In this document: positions 4,063 through 19,728 of the stretch, piece by piece | Layout of the letters: each line of letters begins with the position of its first letter | Position numbering within the stretch: the first letter of the stretch is position 1 | Virus record (IMG/VR): IMGVR_UViG_3300032562_000119 | Coordinates: 1-31,512 of that record | Reading direction: 5' to 3' (one strand) | DNA: 31,512 bases | DNA from: a virus | Made by a program: the position numbers and the translations under genes | Notes under the pieces: generated by a model | Databases searched by the model: none | The model's input: only the letters and a program-made list of their open reading frames with translations | What the model was told of the DNA's origin: nothing

Positions 4063-4074
4063 GCACATGCGGCT

Positions 4075-4082
4075 GTGTCAAC
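4075..4082 (-). promoter_or_regulatory. GTTGACAC start-associated element
   Basis: GTTGACAC on the minus strand, 12 nt before ATG 4062. The plus-strand Mrr insertion begins immediately behind it. Confidence 0.65.
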
Positions 4083-4170
4083 CTCTACAGGGGGGAGAAA
4101 TCCAGCAAATAGGGATTGTTCTTGTTTTGGAATCCCTGAAAGCCAAAATGCATTGAAAAAGAAGCTGTCT

Positions 4171-5070
4171 ATGTCCAAAAATAAACTTTCCCCCTCCCGC
4201 AGTTTGGCGGCAAAGGTCATCTTTGCAGCACTCCAGATTCTCAAGGAAAAGGGGGGCGAAGCTGCTGGGCGAGACGTAATCGCAGAAGTCGAGAAGCGGG
4301 TTTCCCTCGACGAATGGGCCAAAGCAACCTACGAGAAATCGGGCTACATTCGCTGGCAGTCGATTCTCCACTTTTTCAGCATCGATTGCATTAAGGCTGG
4401 TTTTCTAATAAAGAAAAAAGGGGTTTGGTATCTGACGCCCGAGGGAGAGAAGGCGCTCAAACTCGGGGACGAGGGACTATTAAGGGCAGCGACCGATGCA
4501 TACCAAAAATGGAAAGAGGAGAACCAACCACAGGAAGGAAATGGAGATCAGGACGTTAGCGAGAAGGGGCAGCAGGGCCAAGAGGCGACGATTCACGAAA
4601 TCGAGCAACTCGCAATTGAGGGTCTTAAAAAACAGATTGATCTGAAAAACCCTTATGAGTTTCAAGAGCTTGTTGCCGCACTGCTGCGAGGCATGGGTTA
4701 CTATACGCCGTTCGTTGCACCGAAGGGAAAAGACGGAGGAATAGACGTTATTGCATATCGTGACCCTCTCGGAACAGTATCACCTCGAATCAAGGTTCAG
4801 ATCAAACACCGAGATACTGCAGCTACGGTGCAAGAGGTTCGTCAATTGATGGGTCTGCTCCAGAAGGACGGCGACGTGGGAATGTTCGTTTCTTCGGGTG
4901 GCTTTACCAGCGATGCCACAACCACTGCACGTGGAGCACATATACATGTAGAACTAGTTGACGGGGGGCGCTTCATCGCTCTTTGGCAGGAGTTCTATCC
5001 AAAGCTCACCGATGAGGATAAGAGCCTTCTGTCCCTCGTGCCACTGTTCTTCTACGCACCTTCCGTGTAG
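4171..5070 (+). CDS. mrr: Mrr-family restriction endonuclease
   Basis: 299 residues from ATG 4171 (MSKNKLSPSR), matching the roughly 300-residue length of E. coli Mrr. The frame is open upstream to GTG 4075, but that extension overlaps the GTTGACAC element and is unlikely to be translated. Residues about 12-100 form an Mrr_N winged helix; residues about 158-290 form the Mrr catalytic (PD-(D/E)XK-type) domain with KGKDGGIDVI (Asp188, Asp192) and VQIKH (Gln210, Lys212). Such enzymes cleave modified DNA. In a phage it probably acts as superinfection exclusion or host-benefit cargo. It is encoded against the surrounding tail operon and is more A-rich than its neighbours, which points to acquisition by transfer. 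Its stop is 8 nt from the convergent stop of the next gene. Confidence 0.88.
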   Translation: MSKNKLSPSRSLAAKVIFAALQILKEKGGEAAGRDVIAEVEKRVSLDEWAKATYEKSGYIRWQSILHFFSIDCIKAGFLIKKKGVWYLTPEGEKALKLGDEGLLRAATDAYQKWKEENQPQEGNGDQDVSEKGQQGQEATIHEIEQLAIEGLKKQIDLKNPYEFQELVAALLRGMGYYTPFVAPKGKDGGIDVIAYRDPLGTVSPRIKVQIKHRDTAATVQEVRQLMGLLQKDGDVGMFVSSGGFTSDATTTARGAHIHVELVDGGRFIALWQEFYPKLTDEDKSLLSLVPLFFYAPSV

Positions 5071-5078
5071 GGGCTAAT

Positions 5079-5483
5079 TTAACTCTGAGTATCAACTCCG
5101 GCAACGATCTCGATCTCCGCTACCCAGCGTTTCTGCTCAATCGATGTTTGTGATTTGCGCACGAAATATCCGCACAATCCCATGCCATTGAGCTGTAGCC
5201 CGGCGGCGACCGCAGACTCATCCTCCAGCCAGGTGCGCACGGCGTTGAGGCGTTCGTCATGGGCCGCACGGTCATTATCGAAAGCCGGGGTTTCCAGCCG
5301 AAAATCGACGGTCGCTTTCCACAGCGGCCCCACCGTGTGTTCGCAATCGGGGCAATGGACAATGATGGAGGACCCCTCGGCTGTGTTCTCGTCGCCCGAC
5401 ACGCCGGTATGCTGCTCAACCCCGACGAGTTCCGGGAGCCCCCCGACCGCCGCCAGGAATGCGGATTCAATGGCGGTGTTCAT
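5079..5483 (-). CDS. Tail completion / terminator-type protein
   Basis: 134 residues, no membrane segment. The N-terminus (MNTAIESAFLAAVGGLPEL) followed by a beta-rich body with CPDCEH (a CxxC near residue 44) and a C-terminal VAEIEIVAG strand resembles minor tail or tail-terminator proteins found between head-tail connector and tail tube genes. The order (connector gene upstream, tube-like genes downstream) supports this. Start overlaps the stop of the upstream gene (ATGA, 5480-5483). The C-terminus (VDTQS) may have been altered by the Mrr insertion: codons GTT-GAT-AC at 5089-5096 differ from GTTGACAC by one base. Confidence 0.55.
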   Translation of the reverse strand: MNTAIESAFLAAVGGLPELVGVEQHTGVSGDENTAEGSSIIVHCPDCEHTVGPLWKATVDFRLETPAFDNDRAAHDERLNAVRTWLEDESAVAAGLQLNGMGLCGYFVRKSQTSIEQKRWVAEIEIVAGVDTQS

Positions 5484-5785
5484 TTTACTTGTACTGTGAG
5501 GGTGACCATCGGATAGGCCGGGGATTCGCTGACCTTTGAAATCCGGTAGGTTTTGCCGTCGAATTGGATCGGTTCGTTCACCTTGGGTCGGGTGGTGCCC
5601 AGCGCAGCCTTGGCAATCTTGACCGTGAAATCGTATTCCTCGCCGAACCCGCCGATTTGCAGGGTGTCCGAGGATTCAATGGAAGTGATGATCGCCCGGT
5701 AGGTGCGATTGTTCCAGGCCACCGGTTCACCGATCTCCGCAACGATCCCGGCGAGATCAGCGGCTTTTTCTTCCTTTAGCGACAT
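5480..5785 (-). CDS. Head-tail joining protein-like
   Basis: 101 residues with a helical N-terminus (MSLKEEKAADLAGIVAEIG) and a beta-rich remainder (YRAIITSIES, FTVKIAKA, YRISKVSES, VTLTVQVK). The size, fold pattern and position (between capsid and tail completion genes) fit a head-tail attachment protein of the gpFII or Gifsy-2 type. This is inference from layout; no invariant motif is visible. The start is headed by GTTGACAC at the standard 12-nt spacing. Confidence 0.5.
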   Translation of the reverse strand: MSLKEEKAADLAGIVAEIGEPVAWNNRTYRAIITSIESSDTLQIGGFGEEYDFTVKIAKAALGTTRPKVNEPIQFDGKTYRISKVSESPAYPMVTLTVQVK

Positions 5786-5797
5786 GCCCGAGAGCGG

Positions 5798-5805
5798 GTG
5801 TCAAC
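5798..5805 (-). promoter_or_regulatory. GTTGACAC start-associated element
   Basis: 12 nt before ATG 5785 on the minus strand. The TGA inside it is the stop of a short upstream reading frame (…SLRER stop). Confidence 0.65.
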
Positions 5806-5905
5806 GCTCCCTGAGGCTCAAAACGCCGTAACACGGATCGCATTTCTCGGGATTATGGCCTGCGCATTTGATGATTTCGGTGATGAATGCCGGGGCAATG
5901 CACTC
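5801..5905 (-). pseudogene. Possible remnant of a small Cys-rich phage gene
   Basis: The minus strand reads ...APAFITEIIKCAGHNPEKC-DPCYGVLSLRER and ends at TGA 5801, inside the GTTGACAC element of the next gene. A Cys-x-x-His ... Cys-x-x-Cys pattern looks like a genuine small zinc-binding protein. No good start is found: upstream the frame runs into the inserted plus-strand gene, so this may be a gene decapitated by that insertion. It could also be chance. Confidence 0.3.
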
Positions 5906-6583
5906 GACACTTAATCGTGCGCCATCTAAGTAAAGAAACAATGCCATCACCATCGAACATACTCAGAGAGCACGGTGTATTTCTCGCGCACTGCTCCTCT
6001 TACCCGCAGCTCTACGCAAGCGATCTCACCGCACATCTCGGGCCGTTGGAAAGGCTAACTAATGCTGCTCAATCCCAACTTGGGTTGTCATGTTCGACTA
6101 TAGGACCTTATGACTCCTTCAATAACCGCAATTTCACTGGCAAGATCGGCTTGATTCTCGTTCCGCCTTCTTTTGACGCTATTACCCACGCCACACCGAA
6201 GGACGGCGGCACATCGGCACCAGCGAAGCGTGGTGACCCACGCGAACCGTTGCCAAAATTCCCAATCACCGAGCAGCTACTCCGGACAGCGATCAAACAT
6301 CGTCCAAACAACGAACACAACGAGGTTTGCTTAAAGGCATACCATGTGGTTGGTGTCTTTATGTGCCCGCCGGTTGATTTCACACCGAAAGTTGGTGACA
6401 CTCCCATCAGAGTGACCGAACCCGAGATTGTCGATGCGCTTCCGAATCAACGTTTCTTCCTGCTAGACGCTTCGAAATTACACGAGGTTTCCTATGATTG
6501 TGCTATTCAGAAATTTGTCTCCACAGGCAATGCCTATTCGCACGGAGATATTAATCGTGAGGCCAATGTCTAACAATGCACTC
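5896..6583. repeat. 10-bp direct repeat flanking a plus-strand insert
   Basis: CAATGCACTC occurs at 5896-5905 and again at 6574-6583, bracketing the 5941-6573 gene; the second copy begins on the base after its stop codon. It could be a target duplication or the scar of recombination. Confidence 0.4.
5941..6573 (+). CDS. Unrecognised protein, plus-strand cargo gene
   Basis: 210 residues from ATG 5941 (MPSPSNILREHGVFLAHCS). A longer frame from 5887 exists, but its N-terminus has no ribosome-binding site and overlaps the possible remnant gene. 'AAAGAAA' lies just before the chosen ATG. The protein is soluble, with His/Cys scattered (HGVFLAHCSSYPQLY near the start) and beta-strand-like segments KIGLILVPPSF and KAYHVVGVFMCPPVDF that share a 'V-PP-x-F' ending. 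I do not recognise a family. Opposite orientation to the structural operon, apparently lower GC, and the flanking 10-bp repeat mark it as acquired cargo; defence or exclusion is a guess from context only. Confidence 0.65.
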   Translation: MPSPSNILREHGVFLAHCSSYPQLYASDLTAHLGPLERLTNAAQSQLGLSCSTIGPYDSFNNRNFTGKIGLILVPPSFDAITHATPKDGGTSAPAKRGDPREPLPKFPITEQLLRTAIKHRPNNEHNEVCLKAYHVVGVFMCPPVDFTPKVGDTPIRVTEPEIVDALPNQRFFLLDASKLHEVSYDCAIQKFVSTGNAYSHGDINREANV

Positions 6584-6670
6584 CAGAAAACCTCCCCATC
6601 AGCCTTTACTGCAACGGTCTTCACGTTTGAGGACTGCCTGTCGTGATCACCTGAAACTGAACGGCTAGCA

Positions 6671-6706
6671 AAAAGCCCCCGCGCCGTTTCCGACGCGAGG
6701 GCTTTG
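6671..6706 (-). terminator. Rho-independent terminator after the major capsid gene
   Basis: Stem AAAGCCC (6672-6678) with GGGCTTT (6699-6705), extended by CGCG pairing after one mismatch, with a 10-nt loop. On the minus strand the stem is followed by a run of five to six T. It lies just beyond the capsid stop at 6725; on the plus strand it could also end transcripts of the 5941 gene. Confidence 0.75.
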
Positions 6707-6724
6707 AATGGAAACCTGCGCCAA

Positions 6725-7654
6725 TCAGGGCGTCAGGGTGGACCCAGTGGGCAGCGCGGACACAATCCGCTCCAGCACCGGCACGTTGCCGGTTGCGAAG
6801 CCATACATCAGCGTGAAGCTGATTTCCTGCTGGCCGAGCCGCCCGTCGTAACGGTCGCGGACCTGGATGGAAAGACCGGTGCGCCGGTCGCTCACCACGT
6901 CGATCTGCGTGTCGCCGGTGAATTCGGGCACATCCGGAACGCGGGCCGCCATGATGAGGCCTTCGCGGATGCCCGCAATGCCCACCAGGTTTTCCCCGTT
7001 ATTCGGCAAAGCCGAGTATTCCGTGACGGTGAACCCGTTCACGTTTGGCAGCATGCCGGTCACCACAACGTCGGCCACTTGCGGGGCGATGTAGGCTTTA
7101 TACAGAGCCTCATCCTTCTGGAGCGCGTTGTAATAGTCGGAATTGACGAAGATGAAGCGGCCAAGTTGAGGCACATAGCGCTTATTGAGCGTGGTGCCGA
7201 TATCGACCACCGTGTTGCGTCCAAAGCTTCCCGCCGCAACAGCGGTCGTGTTCGGGAAGTTCGCGGCCAGGATGAGGCCGAAGAGATCGTCGCACACTTT
7301 GCGGCCAAGAGCGTAAGCCACCTTATCGGCATACATCAGATTCAGGTCGAGCTCACTCGTGGATCGCTCCTCGTCCGTGATGGCGTATCCCGCATAAGCG
7401 TGGTTGTTGATCTTCACCTTCACGTCCACCATTGCCTGGGCATCGGGGAGATAGCCCACTGCCGGATTGAAAGCCTGAGCCACCGTCGGCTGGACGATGT
7501 GCGTGATGATGTCCTGGTTGAACTTCACTGATTGATCGCTGAAATCCGTCGCGATCCTGGTTAGGACCGGGAATGTGGCGAGCAGCGTGGTAAGCGCCGT
7601 TTGTGCAATCAACGGGCCGTTTACTGTTCCGTCGGAGTTTTGGATGACTGGCAT
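6725..7654 (-). CDS. Major capsid protein
   Basis: 309 residues, the main shell subunit, probably HK97 fold. It follows the protease-scaffold gene as in lambda-like head operons. A predicted E-loop and helix-rich N-terminal part (residues about 40-110, including AYAGYAITDEERSTSELDLN) leads into a core with GRFIFVNSDYYNALQ and a C-terminal P-domain-like stretch (GLSIQVRDRYDGRLGQQEISFTL). It is also followed by its own strong terminator, as expected for the most highly expressed late gene. Its upstream region lacks GTTGACAC; ATG 7654 is preceded by a T/C-rich leader. Confidence 0.88.
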   Translation of the reverse strand: MPVIQNSDGTVNGPLIAQTALTTLLATFPVLTRIATDFSDQSVKFNQDIITHIVQPTVAQAFNPAVGYLPDAQAMVDVKVKINNHAYAGYAITDEERSTSELDLNLMYADKVAYALGRKVCDDLFGLILAANFPNTTAVAAGSFGRNTVVDIGTTLNKRYVPQLGRFIFVNSDYYNALQKDEALYKAYIAPQVADVVVTGMLPNVNGFTVTEYSALPNNGENLVGIAGIREGLIMAARVPDVPEFTGDTQIDVVSDRRTGLSIQVRDRYDGRLGQQEISFTLMYGFATGNVPVLERIVSALPTGSTLTP

Positions 7655-7697
7655 AATTTAGGATGGTGAAGGAAATTGAACTGAGCCTTGGGATTGG

Positions 7698-8162
7698 TTA
7701 CCGCTTGTTGAGAAGGGGTCTGATGTGCGCTTCGAAGTAGGTGGCTGCCTCTTTTGGCTTCTTGGTTTGAACCAGCGCCTTGTGGGCGGAGATGTGTTCC
7801 TCAAGAGTGGATCGGCCCGCGTTGATGGCGGCGTCCCCAGCGGGAGTCACCTTTGCCGGAACCTGAGTGCCGGTGCTGGCGACGATCTGCGCGGATCGTA
7901 AAGCGGCCCGTTTTTCGATGTCCTGTTCCGCAGCCTCAAGTTCAGCATTGCGGGAGGTGACGGATTCGATGGATCGGCGGGCGGTGATGAGATCGGCGCT
8001 CAACTGCTCGCGTTCGGCGCTCAGGGTGGCGAGTTGAGTTTTAAATGCTTCGGCGGCGGTGGATGCCTCGCCCATAAGATTGGCGCTGGCTTGCGCGTCG
8101 GCTTCGAGCGTCTGGACGCGAGAGAGCGCTTCCTGCAATTGTTCCTCGATTGGTTTGCTCAT
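7698..8162 (-). CDS. Scaffolding protein from internal start (Nu3-like)
   Basis: The internal in-frame ATG at 8162 (MSKPIEEQLQEAL) would give 154 residues covering only the coiled-coil scaffold part. It is preceded at 13 nt by a perfect GTTGACAC, the element that heads other starts in this window, although here it lies within the protease reading frame (read as Val-Asp-Thr). Lambda produces Nu3 from an internal start within gene C in the same way. Confidence 0.7.
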   Translation of the reverse strand: MSKPIEEQLQEALSRVQTLEADAQASANLMGEASTAAEAFKTQLATLSAEREQLSADLITARRSIESVTSRNAELEAAEQDIEKRAALRSAQIVASTGTQVPAKVTPAGDAAINAGRSTLEEHISAHKALVQTKKPKEAATYFEAHIRPLLNKR

Positions 8163-9008
8163 TGCCTGAGAGGGCGTGTCAACCCGGCGGGCCTGGGATT
8201 GAAATGAAACGTGATAGGAACGCAGTCGTTGCATGGCTTCGCCGCGATCACGGACAACACCGGCCAGGTTCATCCGCTGGGCCTGTTTGCCGGAGAAATC
8301 CTGTCCTTCCATCGCGTCGGTCGGGATCTTCCGGCCACGAGCGAGAACCGCCGCGTAAAAATCCCCAGCGGTTTCCTCAATGTTGGACTGGATGAATTCG
8401 CGCTGGGCGTCGGTCAACGAAACGCCGGGCGTGCCGATGCTCTTAAACTTGCCAGCGGCGAATACCTCGACCTTTATCCCCTCATTTTTCAGGGCCTCGG
8501 AATCGTCAACCACCGGCTGGATGACGCCGATGGAACCAACCCGGGCGCTAGGGGTGACGTAAATGGCCTGTGCCTGTGAGGCGACCCAGTAGGCCGCAGA
8601 ACACATGAGGCCTGAACTGAAAGCGTAGACCGGTTTTTTACGGTTCACATCCGCGACAGCTTGGGCAAGCTCGGGTGTGCCGGTGACGGTGCCGCCAGGG
8701 GAATCGATATCCAGAAACACGGCCTCGATGTCGGGCCGGTCACCAGCTTCGCGCACGGCAGTGCAGATTTCCTCTGAATCCGTGGCGTTAAAAAGAATCT
8801 GCGAGAACAGATCCGGCTTTCGAATCATCGGCCCGTTCATGGCGACCACGCCGACGCCGTCCTCGAGACTCAGAAGCGGCGACCGGGAAAGCGAGGGAAG
8901 TGGGGTGCGATTGTCGAGGAACGCATGCGCTGCCACGGTCATCGCCCGGAATGCGTCGGGCGTGATGAGCCAGGGTTGTTTGAGAAGAAGGGTTTCTGCA
9001 AGCGTCAT
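7698..9008 (-). CDS. S49 (SppA/lambda C-type) head maturation protease with C-terminal scaffold domain
   Basis: 436 residues. Residues about 50-260 are a Clp-fold S49 peptidase: strands VVAMNGPM and AVFLDIDSPGG (oxyanion region), nucleophile Ser137 in CSAAYW, and general-base Lys189 in AGKFKS, with the 52-residue Ser-Lys spacing known for this family. Residues 283-436 are coiled-coil-like and hydrophilic (LQEALSRVQTLEADAQAS..., SAEREQLSADLITARRS), typical of a scaffolding protein like lambda Nu3. The protease would process portal, scaffold and itself inside the prohead. Start ATG 9008 has the TTGACAC element at 12 nt. It lies between portal and capsid genes, the expected order. Confidence 0.9.
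   Translation of the reverse strand: MTLAETLLLKQPWLITPDAFRAMTVAAHAFLDNRTPLPSLSRSPLLSLEDGVGVVAMNGPMIRKPDLFSQILFNATDSEEICTAVREAGDRPDIEAVFLDIDSPGGTVTGTPELAQAVADVNRKKPVYAFSSGLMCSAAYWVASQAQAIYVTPSARVGSIGVIQPVVDDSEALKNEGIKVEVFAAGKFKSIGTPGVSLTDAQREFIQSNIEETAGDFYAAVLARGRKIPTDAMEGQDFSGKQAQRMNLAGVVRDRGEAMQRLRSYHVSFQSQARRVDTPSQAMSKPIEEQLQEALSRVQTLEADAQASANLMGEASTAAEAFKTQLATLSAEREQLSADLITARRSIESVTSRNAELEAAEQDIEKRAALRSAQIVASTGTQVPAKVTPAGDAAINAGRSTLEEHISAHKALVQTKKPKEAATYFEAHIRPLLNKR
8176..8183 (-). promoter_or_regulatory. GTTGACAC element inside the protease gene
   Basis: 13 nt before the internal scaffold ATG at 8162. Its retention inside coding sequence, at the standard spacing, argues for function in initiation. 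Confidence 0.65.
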
Positions 9009-9020
9009 GCCGAAGGCGGC

Positions 9021-9028
9021 GTGTCAAA
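9021..9028 (-). promoter_or_regulatory. (T)TTGACAC start-associated element
   Basis: TTTGACAC on the minus strand, 12 nt before the protease ATG 9008 and 3 nt past the portal stop at 9032-9034. Confidence 0.6.
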
Positions 9029-9031
9029 TCC

Positions 9032-10495
9032 TCAACCTCCCGGCTTCACGGGTTGTTTGGGCAGGACAACATCATCCTCAGCTTGCTCCGTGAGGACCAC
9101 TGCCCCGGTGCTTGGGCGGTATAGCATTTCCAACGGAACGCTGTATTTCGTCGCGAGGTCGATCATGAGCCGCGCGTCTTGGGCCCGGATTTCCGCCTGC
9201 TCCTCAAAGTCGAGCCCGAGTTCGGCGTAAGATTCGGAAAGTGTTTTCAGGCCAGTCTCGACATCCGCCCGATTCTGCTGCGCTTCCCGCCCTGCATCCA
9301 CGGTCACGCGCTTTGGGCGTTGCCAGCGCACCTTGTGCCAGCCGGGTTGCGCGGGAAGTTCGCGCTGCGCAATTGCATCCCCAATTACATAAGCCCAAAC
9401 CGGGAGTAAAAACCTCTGGATGAGAATGAGCTGGCGGTAGGAGAATCGCCGGTCGGCCTTGGCCACGACGAGCCGCACCCCCGCTCCGCCTATTTTTGAC
9501 GAGTCAGCTGCAAATTCAAACGGCAGCACACCCAGTGCGGCGTCTCGGCGAAGGTGTTCAAGGAAGCCTGTGAAGGTGGGCGACGGGCGCTTGGATTCAA
9601 ATGAATCGATGGACTCGTTTGGTTTAAGCGCCACGAGTTTTCCCCCGACGATCTTTTGCAGCGCCACAGGGTCGCTCGGGTCCTGGTTGCCAGTGCCAGT
9701 CACAGGAAGTGAGAAATCGCCATCCTCGCCGATCTCACCCCGGTCGGTTTTGATAACTCGGGAAATGTCGGCATTGTCTTTGACCGCGTGTTTTTCCAGC
9801 GCCAGCAATTCCATCTCGTCCAGGATATGGTTGATGGAGTGCTGCACCGTGGGCGGGTGCCGCATTGCGCTCACAGACTCCGGTTCGAAAATGTGAAGCA
9901 CCGACTCTGCGGGAAGTTCCTTCGTATCCCCTTCATCCTGTATGAGCCGGTAAAACAAGGGCGCTCCGTAAGAATCGATGCCAATGCCGTCCCGAAATGG
10001 AGTCGGCGCTCCCGATGTTCCACCGTCGCCAATGCGGTGCGTTTCTATTAGCTGCAACACAGGGCGGTTATTCGCGTCCCGTGTTTTGTGAACAAAATAT
10101 TCGCCGTCCACGTCCACCGCCCGGCAGACAAGCGCCTGGCATTCGGCAAAAGAAAACCGTCGCGTGATTTCGCATTGCGACGACCAGTTTGCGAAGTATT
10201 CCTCAGCAGCCCTGTTCCACGCCGGGTCGGGCGATTGCGCCTGGGGCTTGATGCCGTCCCCCGTGGAGTAGATGGCCATGTTGCCAACCAGTTCCCGCAC
10301 GAATCCTGAGTTTTTATGGAGATACCTGGAACGGCGCACCAACTCGTTTCGAACCGCCGGGGTGAGGTCTCGCTTGGTGTCTGTCGGGAGAACACCAGGC
10401 ACACGGGATCGGCGGTAGTTGAAGTTTGCACCCTCATATGGGGTCCACCAAGCCTTCGGAACCAGTCGCTTTAGAATTAGAAAAAGGGGGTTCAT
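9032..10495 (-). CDS. Portal protein (lambda B-like)
   Basis: 487 residues from ATG 10495 (MNPLFLILKRLVPKAWW); an upstream in-frame start at 10510 is less likely because ATG 10495 overlaps the gpW-like stop as ATGA. Twelve copies form the vertex channel through which DNA is packaged. The N-terminal region (NFNYRRSRVPGVLPTDTKRDLT), ELVRRSRYLHKNSGFVRELV, and the later LLALEKHAVKDNADISRVI and FEFAADSSKIGGAGVRLVVAK are typical of lambda-family portals. Position after gpW and before the S49 protease is the canonical lambda order W-B-C. Confidence 0.9.
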   Translation of the reverse strand: MNPLFLILKRLVPKAWWTPYEGANFNYRRSRVPGVLPTDTKRDLTPAVRNELVRRSRYLHKNSGFVRELVGNMAIYSTGDGIKPQAQSPDPAWNRAAEEYFANWSSQCEITRRFSFAECQALVCRAVDVDGEYFVHKTRDANNRPVLQLIETHRIGDGGTSGAPTPFRDGIGIDSYGAPLFYRLIQDEGDTKELPAESVLHIFEPESVSAMRHPPTVQHSINHILDEMELLALEKHAVKDNADISRVIKTDRGEIGEDGDFSLPVTGTGNQDPSDPVALQKIVGGKLVALKPNESIDSFESKRPSPTFTGFLEHLRRDAALGVLPFEFAADSSKIGGAGVRLVVAKADRRFSYRQLILIQRFLLPVWAYVIGDAIAQRELPAQPGWHKVRWQRPKRVTVDAGREAQQNRADVETGLKTLSESYAELGLDFEEQAEIRAQDARLMIDLATKYSVPLEMLYRPSTGAVVLTEQAEDDVVLPKQPVKPGG

Positions 10496-10752
10496 AGCGG
10501 CAGATACCAAGGCACACGGGATTGAGCGACGTTGCGGCGGGGACCGTAGGTTTCGGGATCAAGTGTGCGCAGGGCGAACCTGCATTCCTCGAGGACATCC
10601 TTTACCGACATTGCAAACTGCTTTGTCGCGGTTGATCCGCTGTCGCCCCATGCCATGAGGGTTTTGCCCTCAAGAAGCATTTCTTTGGCTTTCGCCTGAA
10701 TCTGGAGAACTTCAGCTACGGTGAAGCCGGTGGTGAATAGACCTTGAGCCAT
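10492..10752 (-). CDS. gpW-like head-tail joining protein
   Basis: 86 residues, helical N-terminus (FTVAEVLQIQAKAKEMLLEGK), then a beta-hairpin-like GDSGSTATKQFAM and a helix ending VLEECRFALRTLDPETYG. Small size, helix-hairpin-helix pattern and the place directly before the portal gene match lambda gpW, which stabilises the filled head and binds the tail connector. Stop overlaps the portal ATG. GTTGACAC is 12 nt before the start. Confidence 0.75.
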   Translation of the reverse strand: MAQGLFTTGFTVAEVLQIQAKAKEMLLEGKTLMAWGDSGSTATKQFAMSVKDVLEECRFALRTLDPETYGPRRNVAQSRVPWYLPL

Positions 10753-10764
10753 GCCGGGCGCGAG

Positions 10765-10772
10765 GTGTCAAC
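10765..10772 (-). promoter_or_regulatory. GTTGACAC start-associated element
   Basis: 12 nt before ATG 10752. The TGA inside it is the stop codon of the upstream glycosyltransferase gene (CCG CGT TGA CAC). Confidence 0.7.
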
Positions 10773-11529
10773 GCGGCTCGTTCGGAGTCGGTTGAATGCG
10801 TGGCTGACGGCGCTGGCCATCCCAGTTTTCACCAAGGGCCGGTTCCCTTGCGCAGAGATGGTAACAAATAACCGTTGGCAGATGCCGACGGTGGGCGGTC
10901 GCCCATTGTTCTGCGAACATCACATCATCATGGGCGGCGCTGCCAAGGCTCCATGGGTAAGGTTTCTGGGACCCTGCATGCCAGAGCTGAAAAAATCCAA
11001 TCGGCACATATCCGCGAAGCGGGTCAACGTATCGCGGAGAAAGGGGGCGGTTGCCGCCCGGCGCAATGAAAGCGCAATGGGAATGCTGCGGACCGTGCGC
11101 CCGGATCGTGCGCAGTTCGTCCAGACCAATCACATCAACCCGGTCGGCACCGTAAATACAGTTCTCGTCCAGGTGGGTGTGGTTAAAAAGAACCCGCCTG
11201 AAGTTATCCGGCAACGCGATGTCGGAATCGAGGTGCAACCGCCAGCCGTGATATTGCCAACGCGCCATTCCCGCATTGAGCGCGGCACCTTTGTTGAAGC
11301 GTCTGCCATTCTTGCGAAACAAATCGGTTTGCACGCAAATGGCACCATGCTTTTGAGCAACCTGCTGTGTACGGCGGTCCTCGTGGCTGGTGACCACGAT
11401 CATCGTGTCCAAATGCGGGTGGTTCAATCCGAGGGTGACGTCCAGGAGATCGTCAAATCCGACGCATGCCGTGACCGCTTCAAGCCGGAGCGATTCGGCG
11501 GAGTGAGGAGATGAAAGAGCGTATTTCAC
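10768..11529 (-). CDS. Family 2-type (GT-A) glycosyltransferase
   Basis: 253 residues from GTG 11529. It contains DTMIVVTSHEDRRT (nucleotide-sugar binding Rossmann-like start, residues 41-54), FNKGAALNAGMARW (the conserved 'KG-ALN-G' acceptor-side motif, residues 79-91) and LHLDSDIALP with the metal-binding DSD at 101-103. It would transfer a sugar from an NDP-sugar, perhaps to phage DNA, capsid or cell surface; the target is not deducible. No membrane segment is seen, so it is probably cytoplasmic. Its place in the head operon between gpW and lysis-type genes is unusual. GTTGACAC lies 12 nt before GTG, which supports the non-ATG start. Confidence 0.8.
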   Translation of the reverse strand: MKYALSSPHSAESLRLEAVTACVGFDDLLDVTLGLNHPHLDTMIVVTSHEDRRTQQVAQKHGAICVQTDLFRKNGRRFNKGAALNAGMARWQYHGWRLHLDSDIALPDNFRRVLFNHTHLDENCIYGADRVDVIGLDELRTIRAHGPQHSHCAFIAPGGNRPLSPRYVDPLRGYVPIGFFQLWHAGSQKPYPWSLGSAAHDDVMFAEQWATAHRRHLPTVICYHLCAREPALGENWDGQRRQPRIQPTPNEPR

Positions 11530-11541
11530 GACTGATGCCGG

Positions 11542-11549
11542 GTGTCAAC
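11542..11549 (-). promoter_or_regulatory. GTTGACAC start-associated element
   Basis: 12 nt before the GTG start at 11529. The zinc-ribbon cargo gene on the other strand begins directly behind it. Confidence 0.65.
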
Positions 11550-11565
11550 GCTGCCGCATCTCCAT

Positions 11566-11594
11566 TTGCTGTTTCGTTCGTGGCGATCCATACT
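11566..11594 (+). promoter_or_regulatory. Candidate sigma70-type promoter for the 11606 gene
   Basis: TTGCTG (11566-11571), 17-nt spacer, CATACT (11589-11594). Transcription would begin near 11601, almost at the start codon. Weak consensus match; listed because an antisense cargo gene needs its own promoter. Confidence 0.3.
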
Positions 11595-11605
11595 GCTTCG
11601 TGGAT

Positions 11606-12851: not shown

Positions 12852-12854
12852 GAG

Positions 12855-13553
12855 TTACGGGGTGGTTGTGCGGGCTGCGGCAGCCGCATTGTTCAAGCCG
12901 GTGGCGATGTTCTCGACGATGGTGGCGGATTTCGTTTGCCCGGCGGATTGCAACGCATCACCCGCGACGGTGCTGAGGCTTCCGGCAAGCTGCTGCCATT
13001 GTGCGCCGTCGTTCGGGCTCCAAATTTTAACGATCTTCGCCACGTCATCGGAGTTCACGATAGTGGTTTCATTCGCTCGCAGGCCGGAGGCAACGGAGTC
13101 GAGGAAGTCGGCTTTGAAGTTTTTGTCCACTTCATCTGTTGCCGTTGAAATCAGAACGTTCTCAGCGACGGAAAGGGCGCGTTGGCCCACGACCGCCAGG
13201 GTGCTGTCGATCTGAGGCTGGTGCGCCGAAATCCACGCGCAGCCGGAAAAGGCGAGCAGAGGAACCATGCACAAAAAGATCAGGGGCACAATTTTCGTGG
13301 GAAGAGTCGGTGCCCCGGTATCGTTCGGAACGGAACCGCCCGTGACCTGCTTGTCCTTTGTGTTCAAAGCGAACGCGCCGCCGGAGACAACAGCCACCAG
13401 TCCCGCCATACCGGTGACGTAGGTGCGCACCGATTCGGGCAGGAATGCAACGATGCCGGGGTTGATCGCAATGGCAGATGCCAGCACGGTGATCCAGCCG
13501 CTGAGGGTGGTGCGCCAGTTAGCGCCGAGGATGAATGTAAATAATGTGTTCAT
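12855..13553 (-). CDS. Holin-like protein fused to a lipoprotein (spanin-like) domain
   Basis: 232 residues. Residues 1-70 look like a class II-type holin: two hydrophobic segments (about 17-32 and 44-63) with a short polar turn, then a charged tail. Residues 86-105 form a second hydrophobic signal (KIVPLIFLCMVPLLAFSGC) ending in a lipobox-like FSG-Cys105, followed by an Ala/Ser/Asn-rich soluble region. This suggests a fusion, or overlap by internal start (Met96), of a holin with an outer-membrane lipoprotein. It would act in the envelope during lysis. Start overlaps the methyltransferase stop in ATGA. The gene is next to the RlpA-like one. Confidence 0.6.
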   Translation of the reverse strand: MNTLFTFILGANWRTTLSGWITVLASAIAINPGIVAFLPESVRTYVTGMAGLVAVVSGGAFALNTKDKQVTGGSVPNDTGAPTLPTKIVPLIFLCMVPLLAFSGCAWISAHQPQIDSTLAVVGQRALSVAENVLISTATDEVDKNFKADFLDSVASGLRANETTIVNSDDVAKIVKIWSPNDGAQWQQLAGSLSTVAGDALQSAGQTKSATIVENIATGLNNAAAAARTTTP

Positions 13554-14860
13554 GAGATTGTTTCCGAGTCAACTGACGGGGCCGCAAAAACCTCCGTGAC
13601 ATCCTCGCCATTGCGCATCACGCGCCGGGCATTGCCCATCGCCAGCCAGCGGTGAATGATCACGTCGCAATAGGCCGGTGAGATTTCCAGGCCGAAAACG
13701 CGCCGACCGAGTTGTTCCCCGGCGATCAACTGACTGCCGCTGCCAGAGAACGGCTCGTAGCAGAGGCCGCCCTTGTTGGTGTGCTGACGCATTGGCACAG
13801 CGAAGCATTCCAGCGGTTTGGGCGTGGGATGATCGGGACGCTCGTCGTTATTTAGCCCTTCGATTTCCCAAACGCTCCGCCCGTAATCGGGCGTCTCCCT
13901 TGGCGGCTTGTTCCCCTTGATCCAGCCGAAGAAACACGGTTCGTGCGCCCACAAATACCATGACCGGGTCAGGATCGGGCGGTTCGGTTTCGCCCAAATG
14001 ATCTGCTGATGGACGAACGCCCCGTTCTTTTCCCACGCATCTTCCACCATTCGTTGCCGTCGGCTGGCGTGCCAGCAATACCACGCGGCATGGGGCTCGA
14101 TGGCGGCTTCAATTGCCGTTTTGATAAATCGGTCGTAAAGCTCGTTGTTCTGCGATGCATCGGCTTCATCCCAACTCGGGCCGTAGGTTTCCGACCAATC
14201 GGTGTTGGTCTTGGGGCGTGTGCCGGGATGGTTCGTGCCGTCATACCCGACCAGGTAGGGCGGGTCGGTGGCGAAGAGAATTGCCCGCTCGCCATTCATG
14301 ACCCGCCGAACGTCGTCAACATTCGTGGAATCGCCGCACAGCAGTCGGTGGCTCCCAAGTTCATACAGGTCGCCCGGCTTCGTGATGGGATTGACCGGTG
14401 GCGGCGTGATCGTGCTTCCGTCACCCTCGGTGCTGTCCAGTCGTTTGAGTAAATCGTCGAGCGAATCTTCATCGAAGCCGGTAAGGTCGAGATCGATCTT
14501 ACCGTCCAGTTCCTTGAGCAGCTCTTTCAGGCTGTCTTTATCGGCTTCGGCCAGTTCTGAAATTCTGTTATCAGCGACCATATCGGCAAACTCAGCCGCC
14601 TCGTTTTCGTAATCCTGAAAATCTACAGGGACTGTCGCCATCCCCAGAAGCTTCGCTGCGTCCAGGCGTCCGTGGCCCTTGATTATAAATCCCGACCGTT
14701 TCGACACCACGATGGGGTTTCGGAACCCTTGGGCTCCGATGATCTTTGCCAGCAGTTTGATTTGAGATTCTGGATGGCGGTTGGGATTTCGCGGGTTTGG
14801 CACCAGCTTCTCGGTTTCCACCATCTCGTCGTGGGCGCAGTCGATTCGAACGTCACTCAT
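13550..14860 (-). CDS. ParB-domain fused DNA adenine/cytosine methyltransferase
   Basis: 436 residues. Residues about 15-110 form a ParB/Srx-like N-terminal domain (NPRNPNRHPESQIKLLAKII; GFIIKGHGRLDAAK), followed by an acidic linker. Residues about 160-425 are an S-adenosylmethionine-dependent methyltransferase: catalytic DPPY at 199-202, SAM-binding FSGSGS at 371-376, with DPPY before FxGxG, as in beta-class amino methyltransferases. Target is N6-adenine or N4-cytosine; the sequence specificity cannot be read. Phages use such fusions to protect DNA from restriction or to regulate. GTTGACAC lies 12 nt before ATG 14860, paired head-to-head with the one of the resolvase gene. Confidence 0.85.
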   Translation of the reverse strand: MSDVRIDCAHDEMVETEKLVPNPRNPNRHPESQIKLLAKIIGAQGFRNPIVVSKRSGFIIKGHGRLDAAKLLGMATVPVDFQDYENEAAEFADMVADNRISELAEADKDSLKELLKELDGKIDLDLTGFDEDSLDDLLKRLDSTEGDGSTITPPPVNPITKPGDLYELGSHRLLCGDSTNVDDVRRVMNGERAILFATDPPYLVGYDGTNHPGTRPKTNTDWSETYGPSWDEADASQNNELYDRFIKTAIEAAIEPHAAWYCWHASRRQRMVEDAWEKNGAFVHQQIIWAKPNRPILTRSWYLWAHEPCFFGWIKGNKPPRETPDYGRSVWEIEGLNNDERPDHPTPKPLECFAVPMRQHTNKGGLCYEPFSGSGSQLIAGEQLGRRVFGLEISPAYCDVIIHRWLAMGNARRVMRNGEDVTEVFAAPSVDSETIS

Positions 14861-14872
14861 GCCGCTTAGCAG

Positions 14873-14895
14873 GTGTCAACGGGCGGTGTTGACAC
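14873..14895. promoter_or_regulatory. Inverted pair of GTTGACAC elements between divergent genes
   Basis: GTGTCAAC (14873-14880; minus-strand element of the methyltransferase, 12 nt from its ATG) and GTTGACAC (14888-14895; plus-strand element of the resolvase, 13 nt from its ATG), separated by 7 nt. Together they make a 23-bp inverted repeat within the 48-bp gap. Confidence 0.7.
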
Positions 14896-14908
14896 TCCGT
14901 GCGGCATC

Positions 14909-15394: not shown

Positions 15395-15493
15395 TACCTG
15401 GCAGGCACGGAAAAACTGAATGCAGGACGTGTGCCTGATAGCCATTCCGGGCATCACATTTAGTCAGATTAAGTCCTTCAATTACTCGGCCCG

Positions 15494-15506
15494 AAGAGTG
15501 ATCACA
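15494..15506 (+). repeat. AAGAGTGATCACA leader repeat, copy 1
   Basis: 13-nt element containing the palindrome GTGATCAC, ending 5 nt before ATG 15512. An identical copy lies at 16170-16182, again 5 nt before an ATG. Confidence 0.55.
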
Positions 15507-15511
15507 CGACC

Positions 15512-15847
15512 ATGAAAACAAGCAAAACCACCACCGCAAAAATCACCACGGGAAACGAAGGCTGGGGCTTCAGTGCCACACTCCAATCGAACCTGAAATT
15601 GAGCGACGCCGCAACGGTGGACGCCTTTGACAGGGCCGTTCGCTTCACCGCAAAACGCCTCGACATGGATTTGGATTCAGCACGTCGGTTCCTGGATTCC
15701 CGGCTGGGTCGCCACCTGGCCGACCAATGCCACACCGCCAAGTCAGTGGAGCCAGATCTGGATGCCCTTTACGGCTCATGGAAGCGGGACGTTCGGGAGT
15801 TCCGCAGCGCAGCGATCAATACCACAGACGAAGCTTTCTACTCCTAA
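15512..15847 (+). CDS. Unrecognised small phage protein
   Basis: 111 residues, MKTSKTTTAKITTGNEGWGF. After a Thr/Lys-rich head, the central part is helical with SARRFLDSRLGRHLAD, which resembles the C-terminal piece of small proteins often found in phage early modules; no family can be named. Soluble and slightly basic. It follows the resolvase after a 117-nt gap and has no Shine-Dalgarno but does have the AAGAGTGATCACA leader. Confidence 0.65.
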   Translation: MKTSKTTTAKITTGNEGWGFSATLQSNLKLSDAATVDAFDRAVRFTAKRLDMDLDSARRFLDSRLGRHLADQCHTAKSVEPDLDALYGSWKRDVREFRSAAINTTDEAFYS

Positions 15848-15854
15848 TCGCAAC

Positions 15855-16151
15855 ATGAACACCATCACCGACCAGAAACGACTCGCTGCCGTAGCGGGCC
15901 TGATTGCCGCCGTTGCTGAGACCATTAGGGAATTGGACAGCGTGCCGAGCGGCTATCTTTACGCCCAACTGATGGGCCACATGAGTTTTGAGAGCTATGA
16001 AGCCGTCATCGGGTGGCTCGTGCGCTCTGGCGTGGTGCGCCGGGAAACTAGTCATTTACTGGTCTGGACCGGGCCAGTCGCTGCCACCGACAGCCAATCA
16101 AATTGTGTGCCTGCTGCGCATCAGGGCGAGCAACTAAATGCACATTCATAA
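15855..16151 (+). CDS. Unrecognised small protein, possible winged helix
   Basis: 98 residues from ATG 15855 (MNTITDQKRLAAVAGLI). The segment SVPSGYLYAQLMGHMSFESYEAVIGWLVRSGVVRRE looks like a helix-turn-helix/winged-helix fold, where a recognition-like helix is followed by a beta wing (SHLLVWTG). That could indicate a DNA-binding role, but it is inference from pattern only. Seven nt after the previous stop, so cotranscribed. Confidence 0.6.
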   Translation: MNTITDQKRLAAVAGLIAAVAETIRELDSVPSGYLYAQLMGHMSFESYEAVIGWLVRSGVVRRETSHLLVWTGPVAATDSQSNCVPAAHQGEQLNAHS

Positions 16152-16169
16152 GTGGATGTAATTTCGCAA

Positions 16170-16182
16170 AAGAGTGATCACA
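16170..16182 (+). repeat. AAGAGTGATCACA leader repeat, copy 2
   Basis: Identical to 15494-15506 and at the same 5-nt distance from its start codon (ATG 16188). Confidence 0.55.
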
Positions 16183-16187
16183 GCACC

Positions 16188-16388
16188 ATGAAAACGCCAC
16201 TGACCGCCACCGCAAAAGCCACCGCAACGATTGAGAACATCGCCCGCGAAATACTCGATTTGGAAACGCTTGAAACCCGCAAAATGGACAGCCTTGATTT
16301 TCATGATCTGGCTGTTTGGGAAATCCGCAAAGCACTGGAAGCCGCATACAACGCCGGGCGTGAAGCAGCAAATTCAAAAGGAGAATAA
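16188..16388 (+). CDS. DUF6900-like small phage protein
   Basis: 66 residues from ATG 16188. The segment IAREILDLETLETRKMDSLDF followed by HDLAVWEIRKALEAAYNAGR matches the highly conserved pattern of a small phage protein family that I recall as DUF6900 (LETRxxDSLDFHD-AVW-x-ALEAAY-AG). Function unknown. These proteins are usually encoded among early accessory genes. Shares its leader repeat with the 15512 gene. A longer frame from 16152 is rejected because ATG 16188 fits the leader spacing. Confidence 0.7.
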   Translation: MKTPLTATAKATATIENIAREILDLETLETRKMDSLDFHDLAVWEIRKALEAAYNAGREAANSKGE

Positions 16389-16392
16389 CACC

Positions 16393-16656
16393 ATGACAAA
16401 AACATCAAACCCCCTCGACGATAACTACGCAGTGTTCCGCGCCAATCCAGATTGCATCGATGGCGCAATCCAAAACACAACGGTTGCCCGCGCGGGGAGA
16501 GCCTTCGATTGGAAAATGCAGCAGTCGGTGCATGCCGTCGAAATCGCATTCAATAACGAACCCATCGGCACCACGCGCTATCTCATGGTGATCGACATGG
16601 CGGCGGCAAAAGCGCTGCGCGACCAGCTCGACGCGATCCTCTCCAAGCAGTCCTGA
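16393..16656 (+). CDS. Unrecognised small phage protein
   Basis: 87 residues from ATG 16393, which has a good Shine-Dalgarno (AAAGGAG, 9 nt upstream). The protein has an N-terminal NYAVFRANPDCIDGAIQN segment, beta strands around VHAVEIAFN and TTRYLMVIDMAAAKALRDQLDAIL. No family recognised. Four nt after the previous stop, so part of the same operon. Confidence 0.65.
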   Translation: MTKTSNPLDDNYAVFRANPDCIDGAIQNTTVARAGRAFDWKMQQSVHAVEIAFNNEPIGTTRYLMVIDMAAAKALRDQLDAILSKQS

Positions 16657-16693
16657 TTCCAAAACCAAACCAACAACAGAAAGAACCAATACA

Positions 16694-17257
16694 ATGAAAA
16701 TTGAAATCCCATCCAACACCACGGCGAAGAAAATCCTCGCCACCAACAAACCGCCGCGCGGCGCAACCCACTTCCGGTTCTCGGACGGGAAGCGCAAGCC
16801 GGTGATCGACAAGCTCGCAAACATCGACACGCTGGCGGGCTGCACAGGCACCCTCGAATTCGGCAAGGTCACCTTCGAGGGCCGGGGGCGGTATGCGAAA
16901 GTGAAAGAATTCATCCCGGTCGCGCCGGAACCGGCACCGACAGTTACGATCATCGAAGCCAACCAACCTCCGGTTGTGATCGCCCAAGCCACCGACGTGA
17001 CCGCGCCAAGCAAGGGACGAAAGAACAAGATTCACGGATTCTCCGCCTGCGCGGTGGCAAAGGCGCTCGGCGCGGCGGGCGTGAAGCACGAGGAAGCCGA
17101 CCGCATCTTCCGGGTAAACGGGATCGAGATGCCGAAGGCGAGTCTATCGGTGCAACTCGGTTTCGGGCGCAGGCCTGCCACCTGGGATCGGCATGGGAAA
17201 CCAGCTGAACTCACCGAGGAGCAGATCGCAGGGCTCCGCAACGGCGGGTTGGCCTGA
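16694..17257 (+). CDS. Unrecognised two-domain phage protein
   Basis: 187 residues from ATG 16694. Residues 1-80 form a compact beta-rich domain (KPPRGATHFRFSDGKRKPVI); a Pro-rich linker follows (APEPAPTVTIIEANQPPVVI). Residues about 113-160 (HGFSACAVAKALGAAGVKHEEADRIFRVNG) look like a small helical, possibly helix-turn-helix domain. Found at the end of the plus-strand cluster, with its stop 22 nt from the convergent terminase stop. The C-terminal domain resembles recurring hypothetical proteins in phages, but no function can be given. Confidence 0.6.
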   Translation: MKIEIPSNTTAKKILATNKPPRGATHFRFSDGKRKPVIDKLANIDTLAGCTGTLEFGKVTFEGRGRYAKVKEFIPVAPEPAPTVTIIEANQPPVVIAQATDVTAPSKGRKNKIHGFSACAVAKALGAAGVKHEEADRIFRVNGIEMPKASLSVQLGFGRRPATWDRHGKPAELTEEQIAGLRNGGLA

Positions 17258-17279
17258 TGCCGGATCGACAACTTTCGAG

Positions 17280-19106
17280 TCAGTTCGCCGCAGGCTGATC
17301 ATCGTCGCCGGAAGTGGCGTGTTCATCTCCCTGCACCGCTTCCCGTCCAATCAGCTTGAGCATGGTCGCAGCAGCCGTCTGCATCCCCTCACAATCAAAC
17401 ATGTGATTTGGTCGGCTCCCAATCTGTAACCACGCCCACTTACCTTTGTCTTTCACCCGGTGCTCGGACTCCATCTGTTTTAAATAATCTTCCGGCACAT
17501 CGTCGGGAATTTCCCACGTCACACCGTTGGCCGGGTCCTGGTTGCGGCGTAACCGCGCCAGCGAATCCTTGATGTTAAGGTTGCTCCAGTAATGGACGTG
17601 GCACCAGCGGCTCGCGCCGAGCACCACCTTCCGGCGGGGCGAATAGAACCGCTGAATCGATTTTCCGTTCTTGGTCTTGTGGACAAACGTCGTGCGGCGG
17701 TCGCCCATGAGCGCCACCCAACCGCGCTCGGAGCATTGCTTGTAAACCTCATAGGTGGCGTTGCCTGCATCGACGAACACCAGGTTTGAGTGAATCGAAA
17801 AACGCTTCTGCAAGGCTTCAACGTCCTCGAAAGTGAGGATGCGCTCGCACCAGAGCAGGCGGGATGACCCCTCGGCGCTCCATGACCGGATAACGACATA
17901 GAGATGGTCGATCTGGCAGTCGACGGTCATAACCCGAAGCGGAATCATATGTCGCCCCTCTTCAAAAGGTGGCGGAACGATTTTACCGAATCGGTCGATG
18001 CCGCCTTCGTCGCACCACAAATCCCCCATGCAATATCCAGAGCGAGTAATATCCAGTTTGAAATCCTCGAGGTATTCACGCCACGCCAGCCCGAGCCGCT
18101 TCTGATAGAACTGCTGGATCAATGAAGTATCGCCTTTGCGGGCGACTTGCTTGGCCCGGAGATAAAGTTCCGCAAGCTTTCCCCACGACATCGTGGCCAG
18201 GGCGTTCCAGTGGAACCCGACATTCTCCCGGGCTGCCCGCAAGTTCTGCGGAACGAATTTTCCTGAGGCGTTCAGCCTGCGCCGCATCTCGTCCGTGTCG
18301 GGCAGATAGGTATTGCACGACGCGCACCGCAGCGCCGTCGTTTCATGGACCCGCATGAAATCATATTGCTCGTTCTCATCCTTGCAGTCTTTTGACCACT
18401 CCACGTTTTCCCAGAGGAACGGCTGCCGGTGGCCACACTCAGGACAGGCGAACGTCCACTCCCGCATATCAGTGGTTTCGAATTTCCGGTGTGTGTCGTC
18501 GTCCTCCTCGCCGCCCTGACTCATGAAGATGCATTTGCCCAGCCAGCCGAAGGCGGTGACGCGGGCCTCTGCCTCCGCCATGTGGCCGGTCGGAAATTGC
18601 CAGGTCTCATCTGCGAAAAGCCAGCGGATGGACCGGCGCTGGAGGTTGGTGCGGTTGTGTGCCCCGGCGACCCACAGGGTCATGCCGTTGGCGAAATGGA
18701 TCGTCGTGTTACGTTTCTTGTGGCGGTCAGCTGGGTAGAGCGCCCGGACCGGCTCGCACACATCAAAAAGTTTCTGGAGGCGGGACTCGGACTGATCTTT
18801 AGCATCCTCGTCCGTTTCGTTGAGCCAGAGGGTTGGCCCCGGCATGTTCGCGACGATATACGCCAGTGCGATCTCCGAAACGGTCGTCTTGCTGGCCTGG
18901 ACCGCCGCGATGATTGAGATAAGCCGCACCCTTGGATTGGTGATGGCATCGAACACCTCCCGGATCTGCGGCGAGTTTTCAATGCGGAACGCGCCGGGGT
19001 TCGGAGAGTATGGGATGGCTTTGATGTGTTCCTGCGCCCACTGCCAGATCGGGCGGCGGTCAGGCGGCACACAGACGCGCCGCCACAGATCGTCGTAAAA
19101 ACTCAT
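17280..19106 (-). CDS. Terminase large subunit (lambda gpA family)
   Basis: 608 residues. It cuts concatemeric DNA and drives it into the prohead by ATP hydrolysis. Residues 62-75 carry a variant Walker A (IIAAVQASKTT, characteristic of the gpA type); residues 161-167 (RWLFADE) are Walker B with the catalytic Glu. A zinc-ribbon-like set Cys221-x2-Cys224 and Cys261-x2-Cys264 sits between ATPase and nuclease. The nuclease domain has MTVDCQID (Asp396) and VFVDAGN (Asp446). Length is close to lambda gpA (641). It lies 3 nt after the small subunit gene, so the two are cotranslated. Confidence 0.93.
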   Translation of the reverse strand: MSFYDDLWRRVCVPPDRRPIWQWAQEHIKAIPYSPNPGAFRIENSPQIREVFDAITNPRVRLISIIAAVQASKTTVSEIALAYIVANMPGPTLWLNETDEDAKDQSESRLQKLFDVCEPVRALYPADRHKKRNTTIHFANGMTLWVAGAHNRTNLQRRSIRWLFADETWQFPTGHMAEAEARVTAFGWLGKCIFMSQGGEEDDDTHRKFETTDMREWTFACPECGHRQPFLWENVEWSKDCKDENEQYDFMRVHETTALRCASCNTYLPDTDEMRRRLNASGKFVPQNLRAARENVGFHWNALATMSWGKLAELYLRAKQVARKGDTSLIQQFYQKRLGLAWREYLEDFKLDITRSGYCMGDLWCDEGGIDRFGKIVPPPFEEGRHMIPLRVMTVDCQIDHLYVVIRSWSAEGSSRLLWCERILTFEDVEALQKRFSIHSNLVFVDAGNATYEVYKQCSERGWVALMGDRRTTFVHKTKNGKSIQRFYSPRRKVVLGASRWCHVHYWSNLNIKDSLARLRRNQDPANGVTWEIPDDVPEDYLKQMESEHRVKDKGKWAWLQIGSRPNHMFDCEGMQTAAATMLKLIGREAVQGDEHATSGDDDQPAAN

Positions 19107-19109
19107 CGT

Positions 19110-19697
19110 TTACACTGCCTCCCGCAACACCCCGTCGAGGGCGTCCTGGTTGATCTGCTGAATGGCCACTGCGTCTTTGCCGACGCACAGGGGAGGAAGT
19201 TCCAGGGTGAGTTTTGCAAAAAGGAGATTTTTCAAGACGGCGAATCGCTGGCTCCACTCCGCTTCCACATCGGCTTTGAAAACGTAGAGGCCTTTTTTCA
19301 GCGCGACCTTCAGCTCCCGATCTTCAATTTCCGCCAGAAGTTTCCGGGCTTTGAGGGCTTCGGCGTCCGGGGCGAGCCCGGCTTTCAGATCATGCGCATC
19401 GATGAAGCTGCGCCAGGCGACAATATCGTGAGTGCCGTTGGCCGAGGGGTTGGGGGCGTCCTTCTTTTTTCGCCAGGAGTAGAGGGTTTGCCTGGTGACT
19501 CCGAGCACACGCGCCAGCTCCGCCACGTCCTTGGCTTGCGTGACTGTCTCGTTGCTGCCAGCGGCCCGCGCCCGGATGACCGTCAGCTCGTTCGCATTGA
19601 GGGTGCGCCCGGTTGAGACCTTCTTTACGACATTTTTCCAGTTGGCTTCCAGGACCCGTGAGGCCATTTCTGGCGTGATGGCAGATGTTTCGCTCAT
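19110..19697 (-). CDS. Terminase small subunit (Nu1-like)
   Basis: 195 residues from ATG 19697 (MSETSAITPE); an upstream start at 19727 would run into the TTGACAC elements. The helix-turn-helix at residues about 55-78 (KDVAELARVLGVTRQTLYSWRKK) is the winged-helix DNA-binding motif used to recognise cosB-like sites. The later helical region (LKARKLLAEIEDRELKVALKK) would dimerise and bind the large subunit. The upstream TTGACAC is 13 nt away, and direct repeats further upstream may be its binding sites. Confidence 0.88.
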   Translation of the reverse strand: MSETSAITPEMASRVLEANWKNVVKKVSTGRTLNANELTVIRARAAGSNETVTQAKDVAELARVLGVTRQTLYSWRKKKDAPNPSANGTHDIVAWRSFIDAHDLKAGLAPDAEALKARKLLAEIEDRELKVALKKGLYVFKADVEAEWSQRFAVLKNLLFAKLTLELPPLCVGKDAVAIQQINQDALDGVLREAV

Positions 19698-19710
19698 ACC
19701 GCCGGGCCGG

Positions 19711-19728
19711 GTGTCAAAAAGTGTCAAG
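19711..19728 (-). promoter_or_regulatory. Tandem TTGACAC elements before the small terminase gene
   Basis: Minus-strand TTTGACAC at 19711-19718, 13 nt from ATG 19697, preceded by a second copy, CTTGACAC, at 19721-19728. Confidence 0.65.

Follow-up and report, generated by a model that had tools for sequence, protein, structure and literature searches.

A start-codon-locked TTGACA element in Verrucomicrobiota phages with a possible promoter-like role

Many virion and packaging genes of a large, mostly unstudied group of Verrucomicrobiota viruses are preceded by a short bipartite element, which is built on TTGACA, oriented with the gene and placed at a nearly fixed distance from the start codon. 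The element is genuine and widespread and, as far as the searched literature shows, undescribed, no published description of it having been found there. Sequence comparisons suggest, with a likelihood somewhat short of even, that it is a DNA-level promoter-like element of this phage class, which would yield leaderless or near-leaderless mRNAs.

Copies of the element in the window

The window (viral record G000, 31,512 bases) is a contig of a Verrucomicrobiota-type siphovirus. It encodes a lambda-type portal, an S49 head protease, a GpA terminase and a ParB/DNA-methyltransferase fusion, as well as a RuvC-like resolvase, a tape measure protein, PolA and a primase-like gene. No near relative of the window was found in the phage record collection, where Verrucomicrobia phage P8625 was one of its distant matches. 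The best matches of a genome scan with a protease alignment were almost exclusively Verrucomicrobiota records, spanning Akkermansiaceae, Verrucomicrobiaceae, Chthoniobacteraceae and Spartobacteria.

Nine copies of KTTGACAC are present in the window against 1.96 ± 1.37 expected, a number that none of 100 dinucleotide shuffles reached. All nine copies lie on the coding strand 12-13 nt ahead of a start codon, at the places and on the strands given in the initial annotation. The pattern TTGACACN{10,16}ATG was found eight times (0.41 expected), and the reversed pattern with spacing had zero matches in the window. Plain TTGACA is not enriched there (14 copies versus 14.3 expected), its placement being the unusual feature.

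On the minus strand, GTTGACAC-N9-TG at 4064..4082 precedes start 4062 of a tail-region gene (3739-4062) and is kept in the G017 and G003 orthologues. The copy GTTGACAC-N9-GG at 5787..5805 (minus) is located before start 5785 of a conserved small head-region protein (5480-5785), a gene with exact TTGACA at identical spacing in 12 of 15 phages. Within the protease gene, GTTGACAC at 8165..8183 (minus) precedes the internal start 8162, which is nested and scaffold-like. This start shares the frame and the stop of the protease ORF (7698-9008) and has the position of a nested scaffold start of the lambda C/Nu3 type; relatives carry TTGACA-N14-ATG at the corresponding start. The S49 head maturation protease itself (start 9008) has TTTGACAC at 9010..9028 (minus). 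Further upstream, GTTGACAC at 10754..10772 (minus) precedes start 10752 of an 86-aa gene upstream of the portal, and the TGA of this copy also terminates the gene upstream, 10768-11529 (product unknown), whose GTG start at 11529 is in turn preceded by GTTGACAC at 11531..11549 (minus). The ParB/DNA methyltransferase fusion (start 14860) has GTTGACAC-N9-GG at 14862..14880 (minus), back to back with a divergent GTTGACAC on the plus strand at 14888..14906, which precedes start 14909 of the RuvC-like resolvase. The terminase small subunit (start 19697) is preceded by TTTGACAC-N9-GG at 19700..19718 (minus).

The initial list of copies was incomplete. It had overlooked a one-off GTTGACTC at 13566-13573 (element 13555..13573, minus), which lies 12 nt before start 13553 (gene 12855-13553) within the 3' end of the methyltransferase gene; orthologues of 12855-13553 have exact TTGACAC at this place. 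Also missing was another TTGACAC in tandem with the copy at 19711 and 10 bp upstream of it (19721-19727); this arrangement, present in the window and in L004, is rare overall. From the two looser copies proposed, the one before start 20613 was retained (ATTGACAA-N9-GG at 20616..20634, minus; gene 20104-20613, product unknown), and an orthologue keeps ATTGACA there with the same spacing. The other, before start 30558 (TTGACAG at 15 nt, lacking a GG downstream), is weak and probably a chance match rather than a member. The initial annotation had also described the first half of the element only, missing the GG fixed 11-12 nt downstream.

The element is absent from the terminase large subunit GpA (17280..19106, minus) and from the lambda-family portal protein (9032..10510, minus; lacking in 15 of 15 phages), and its exact form from the major head protein (6725..7654, minus; also 15 of 15). 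No exact copies were found at these genes in any of the genomes compared. Two window stretches of about 1 kb, 4063-5078 and 5786-6724, contain no conserved coding-strand gene, and the opposite-strand ORFs located there (4075-5070 and 5887-6573) have no homologue among 15 relatives.

Conservation and anatomy

Conservation was measured across 80 viral contigs carrying a related protease; most viral records are fragments, and the start codons of relatives were assigned by rule rather than annotation. Counting both strands, 300 of the 321 TTGACAC copies have a start codon 12-17 nt downstream (d, counted from the end of the searched motif to the first codon of an ORF no shorter than 35 codons), compared to 48 of 321 in the reverse-complement control of the same set. 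The proposal of a fixed, oriented and start-associated element is borne out. Prophage-bearing host contigs showed a similar start-locking (172 of 198 copies), and phages related through PolA only had 8 of 74 copies start-locked.

The motif and its spacing persist at 50-60% protein identity, with the spacer sequence rewritten. At the protease start, exact TTGACA is present in 14 of 15 phages, 13 of them at equal distance, with wholly rewritten spacers and either ATG or GTG as the start codon. Nearly all Verrucomicrobiota prophages inspected keep the protease element, the exceptions being mostly Akkermansia. The element was also found in far more divergent phages with terminases about 33% identical and a GC content of 48-54%. 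A DNA pattern scan of IMG/VR returned 38 stretches, a number near chance, about half of them in element-rich contigs.

Universal to the group are genes for the virion and for packaging, together with a ParB-domain protein that usually carries a methyltransferase, and replication genes vary between members. For example, the window (21482-25383, PolA and a DUF5906 primase-like gene) and G013 (L247:9141-12815, a different primase/helicase set) have the late cassette and the element in common despite unlike replication modules. The ParB-domain gene (window 13550-14860; L250:11301-12815) is present in every phage compared; it is fused to an N4/N6 DNA methyltransferase in the window, and the G018 copy apparently has no methyltransferase domain.

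The consensus from 225 non-redundant sites, which are not fully independent because non-redundancy was set via simple identity, is bipartite: (G/T)TTGACA(C)-N9/10-GG. The G at positions 16-17 is locked to TTGACA, and the start codon floats 1-5 nt behind the GG; in the classes d=14, 16 and 17, G17 reaches 72% in the motif frame versus 35% for G at -2 in the start frame. A search for a second upstream element revealed no conservation from -70 to -2 over the 225 sites. The start codon is directly preceded by C in 60% of sites. The motif TGA is the stop codon of an upstream ORF in 28% of sites; 39% are located inside an upstream ORF overlapping the start, and an upstream ORF is missing in 32%. Among viral loci L087-L166, starts at d=15 are several times less common than those at 13, 14 and 16, and this distance would put the motif TTG in the frame of the gene. 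Termination-reinitiation at the motif TGA was considered and rejected, the stop codon being present in just that minority of sites. GC-richness of the spacer was likewise not retained as a feature, as it roughly tracks genome GC in AT-richer phages.

Recognition of the element

Initiation of transcription by the element, the site of its RNA start and a phage-specific reader are all inferred. A protein or a form of RNA polymerase acting on phage DNA would recognise (G/T)TTGACA(C)-N10-GG and place the RNA 5' end on the start codon or a few bases from it at most. Leaderless or near-leaderless mRNAs would then be produced from individual virion and packaging genes or from short series of them. This reading agrees with the start-locking of viral and prophage copies, and the C that commonly precedes the start codon fits a pyrimidine-purine transcription start. 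The GG is tied to TTGACA rather than to the floating start codon, and therefore resembles part of a binding site and not start-codon context.

The distribution of TTGACA points in the same direction. Outside starts, no other non-palindromic hexamer of these phages is as depleted as TTGACA (observed/expected 0.23, with expected counts from an order-3 Markov model), which is avoided on the sense (0.30) and antisense (0.33) strands alike. Avoidance on the antisense strand would not be expected of an RNA signal and argues against one. Four host genomes also avoid the hexamer, at weaker ratios of 0.44-0.73, and the argument therefore rests on degree, the antisense deficit in phages having P = 4e-6 under the pooled host ratio. 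In several lineages, back-to-back copies a few bp apart serve divergent genes and thus leave no space for ordinary promoters. No sigma70-like promoter was found on the coding strand over 18 kb of the late region of the window. RNA structure becomes weaker only once the start codon is reached, and the region from -15 to +14 is more structured than in shuffles, a profile unlike that of the usual leadered initiation region.

Leaderless RNAs are common in the phylum and represent 10% of the transcription start sites of Akkermansia (PMC4782308), and host genes lack a Shine-Dalgarno signal. Phage P8625 (L006) has TTGACA exactly 30 nt upstream of starts 5448, 10772, 15594 and 22442; three of these are annotated genes preceded by TTGACA-N17-TATnnn-N7-ATG, and the fourth has the same distance. 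These sites appear to be leaderless sigma70 promoters in another Verrucomicrobiota phage. Within the phage family studied here, L112, L114 and L147 carry TTGACA-N19-TAGGAT-N7-ATG with the common string GTGCGTGTCTCGCG, a second type of leaderless promoter with a conventional look.

Several observations stand against the promoter-like reading. Searches of the phages revealed neither an RNA polymerase nor a sigma factor. The T7-type polymerase domain PF00940 was absent from 11 phage records, possibly incomplete, which is a weak test because control genomes also gave none, and Sigma70_r4 gave below-cut-off matches only, with no convincing sigma factor. The spacer is GC-rich in GC-rich phages and offers no melting region, and the major head protein, expected to be the most expressed gene, has no element. 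The weaker avoidance of TTGACA by the hosts also counts against it. Since replication genes vary within the group, the reader would be encoded in the conserved cassette or be a host protein. The fuller proposal of an undescribed phage initiation mode, in which a phage-directed form of polymerase would use TTGACAC-N10-GG with no -10 hexamer and produce a leaderless mRNA for each virion gene or short operon in hosts lacking Shine-Dalgarno signals, is possible but doubtful.

Alternatively, the element may act in RNA, with UUGACAC...GG read by a phage or host ribosome-associated factor in place of a Shine-Dalgarno sequence in hosts poor in them, which we consider rather unlikely. Its tight coupling to start codons, GTG and nested ones included, would suit a translation signal, as would the location of many sites in upstream ORFs and the use of the TGA as upstream stop. 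Shine-Dalgarno sequences are absent in these hosts, and some Verrucomicrobia are classed as scarce in them (PMC10783764). A permutation test also gave significance for spacer hairpins at d=13 and d=16, but not at d=14, the third spacing class examined. However, a conserved hairpin was not adopted: column pairs show no covariation, and AT-richer phages keep the element though the hairpin is impossible there. Pairing with the ribosome, suggested earlier as a check, found no support, as the six-base complements TGTCAA, GTGTCA and GTCAAC are absent from the two host 16S genes found, and the element is not a complement of the 16S 3' end located 5-9 nt before the start, as a Shine-Dalgarno sequence would be. 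Equal avoidance on the two strands, the tie of the GG to the motif, structure that is not lowered upstream of the start and the lack of use by host genes all speak against an RNA signal, and divergent pairs would require promoters within the opposing genes. The avoidance, the divergent pairs, the structure profile and the absent 16S complement lean towards recognition at the DNA level.

Quite unlikely, in our estimate, is a repressor or silencer operator, an asymmetric stoperator-like site at which a phage immunity or late-gene regulator would block transcription. The many asymmetric copies oriented with transcription, their presence in prophages and the avoidance of the motif elsewhere on both strands are in line with such a role. 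Immunity specificities usually diverge fast, whereas the same motif is found in phages with terminases about 33% identical. A repressor acting as a monomer with two domains, like that of the L5 type (PMC9283540), would suit a two-part site. However, blocking of transcription would not need a distance to the start codon nearly so tight, and no common repressor gene was found among the genes shared by the phages compared.

It is highly improbable that TTGACA, which equals the -35 consensus, is an ordinary sigma70 -35 box of transcripts beginning inside genes. A -10 hexamer 16-18 bp downstream is present in 1 of 225 sites versus 5.8 in shuffles, in agreement with the initial view that a normal promoter was unlikely, and at 15-19 bp at least four matches occur in 3% of sites versus 9% of shuffles. 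Such transcripts would also lose the first codons, and the conserved protein N-termini come after the motif-linked start.

Least probable of all, and barely conceivable, is a host-wide start signal that phages have in common, the earlier suggestion of a host-wide feature: the hosts are the same throughout the phylum, but their genomes do not use the element. Chthoniobacter flavus has 18 copies of TTGACAN13-14ATG versus 23 at control spacing, other hosts being similar, and no match to the strict form in 7.8 Mb. Nine host genomes combined have 16 strict matches, several within known prophages, and the matches listed for two genomes are clustered in prophage. Histograms of the motif-to-start distance are flat in four hosts (about 1.2 Mb of host DNA), and neither the element nor a Shine-Dalgarno signal was found in host start regions.

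The element would amount to a code of gene expression in the phages of an entire phylum for which phage biology is almost lacking. It flags true and nested start codons in metagenomic viruses, allows Verrucomicrobiota phages to be identified without homology, and provides a system for asking how bacteria poor in Shine-Dalgarno sequences start late phage genes.

Comparison with known systems

The start-associated sequences (SAS) of Cluster K mycobacteriophages (PMC3203893) resemble the element in being asymmetric, one-orientation repeats of unknown function, located directly before starts and kept at orthologous genes. The SAS is the 13-bp GGGATAGGAGCCC with a Shine-Dalgarno core able to pair with 16S rRNA (PMC3203893), whereas the element, KTTGACAC-N9-GG, has no such pairing. 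Unlike the SAS, it also has a floating start codon and two-strand avoidance, and it is found in phages of another bacterial phylum.

Read on one strand, the L5 stoperator consensus contains TTGACA. Like the element, the Cluster A stoperators (L5, TipsytheTRex; PMC9283540) are present in tens of asymmetric copies genome-wide, oriented with transcription, but they are contiguous 13-bp sites with a known repressor and no 12-16 nt lock to starts, and no repressor was found for the element. The likeness in logic to start-associated sequences noted at the outset holds, the sequence itself being unrelated.

In leaderless sigma70 promoters (Deinococcus, Mycobacterium, Akkermansia and P8625), position likewise defines the start codon and a Shine-Dalgarno sequence is unneeded. 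These promoters have a -10 hexamer about 7 nt and TTGACA about 30 nt before the start, whereas the element has no -10 there, the hexamer at -13..-8 matching TATAAT at 0.81 of 6 positions, below the 1.2 expected by chance, and its TTGACA lies at 13-16 nt. Promoters of T7-like RNA polymerase, T4 late and sigma54-like type share with it a short, phage-only consensus before late genes, and its downstream GG recalls T7-type starts. In contrast to such phage-specific promoters, the element has no T7-type polymerase found with it and no AT-rich melting stretch, and its spacing misfits -24/-12 or -10 arrangements. The element behaves like an SAS or a leaderless promoter, yet lacks the features that define either of them. 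It may mark a mode, specific to phages, of starting mRNAs with very short leaders or none.
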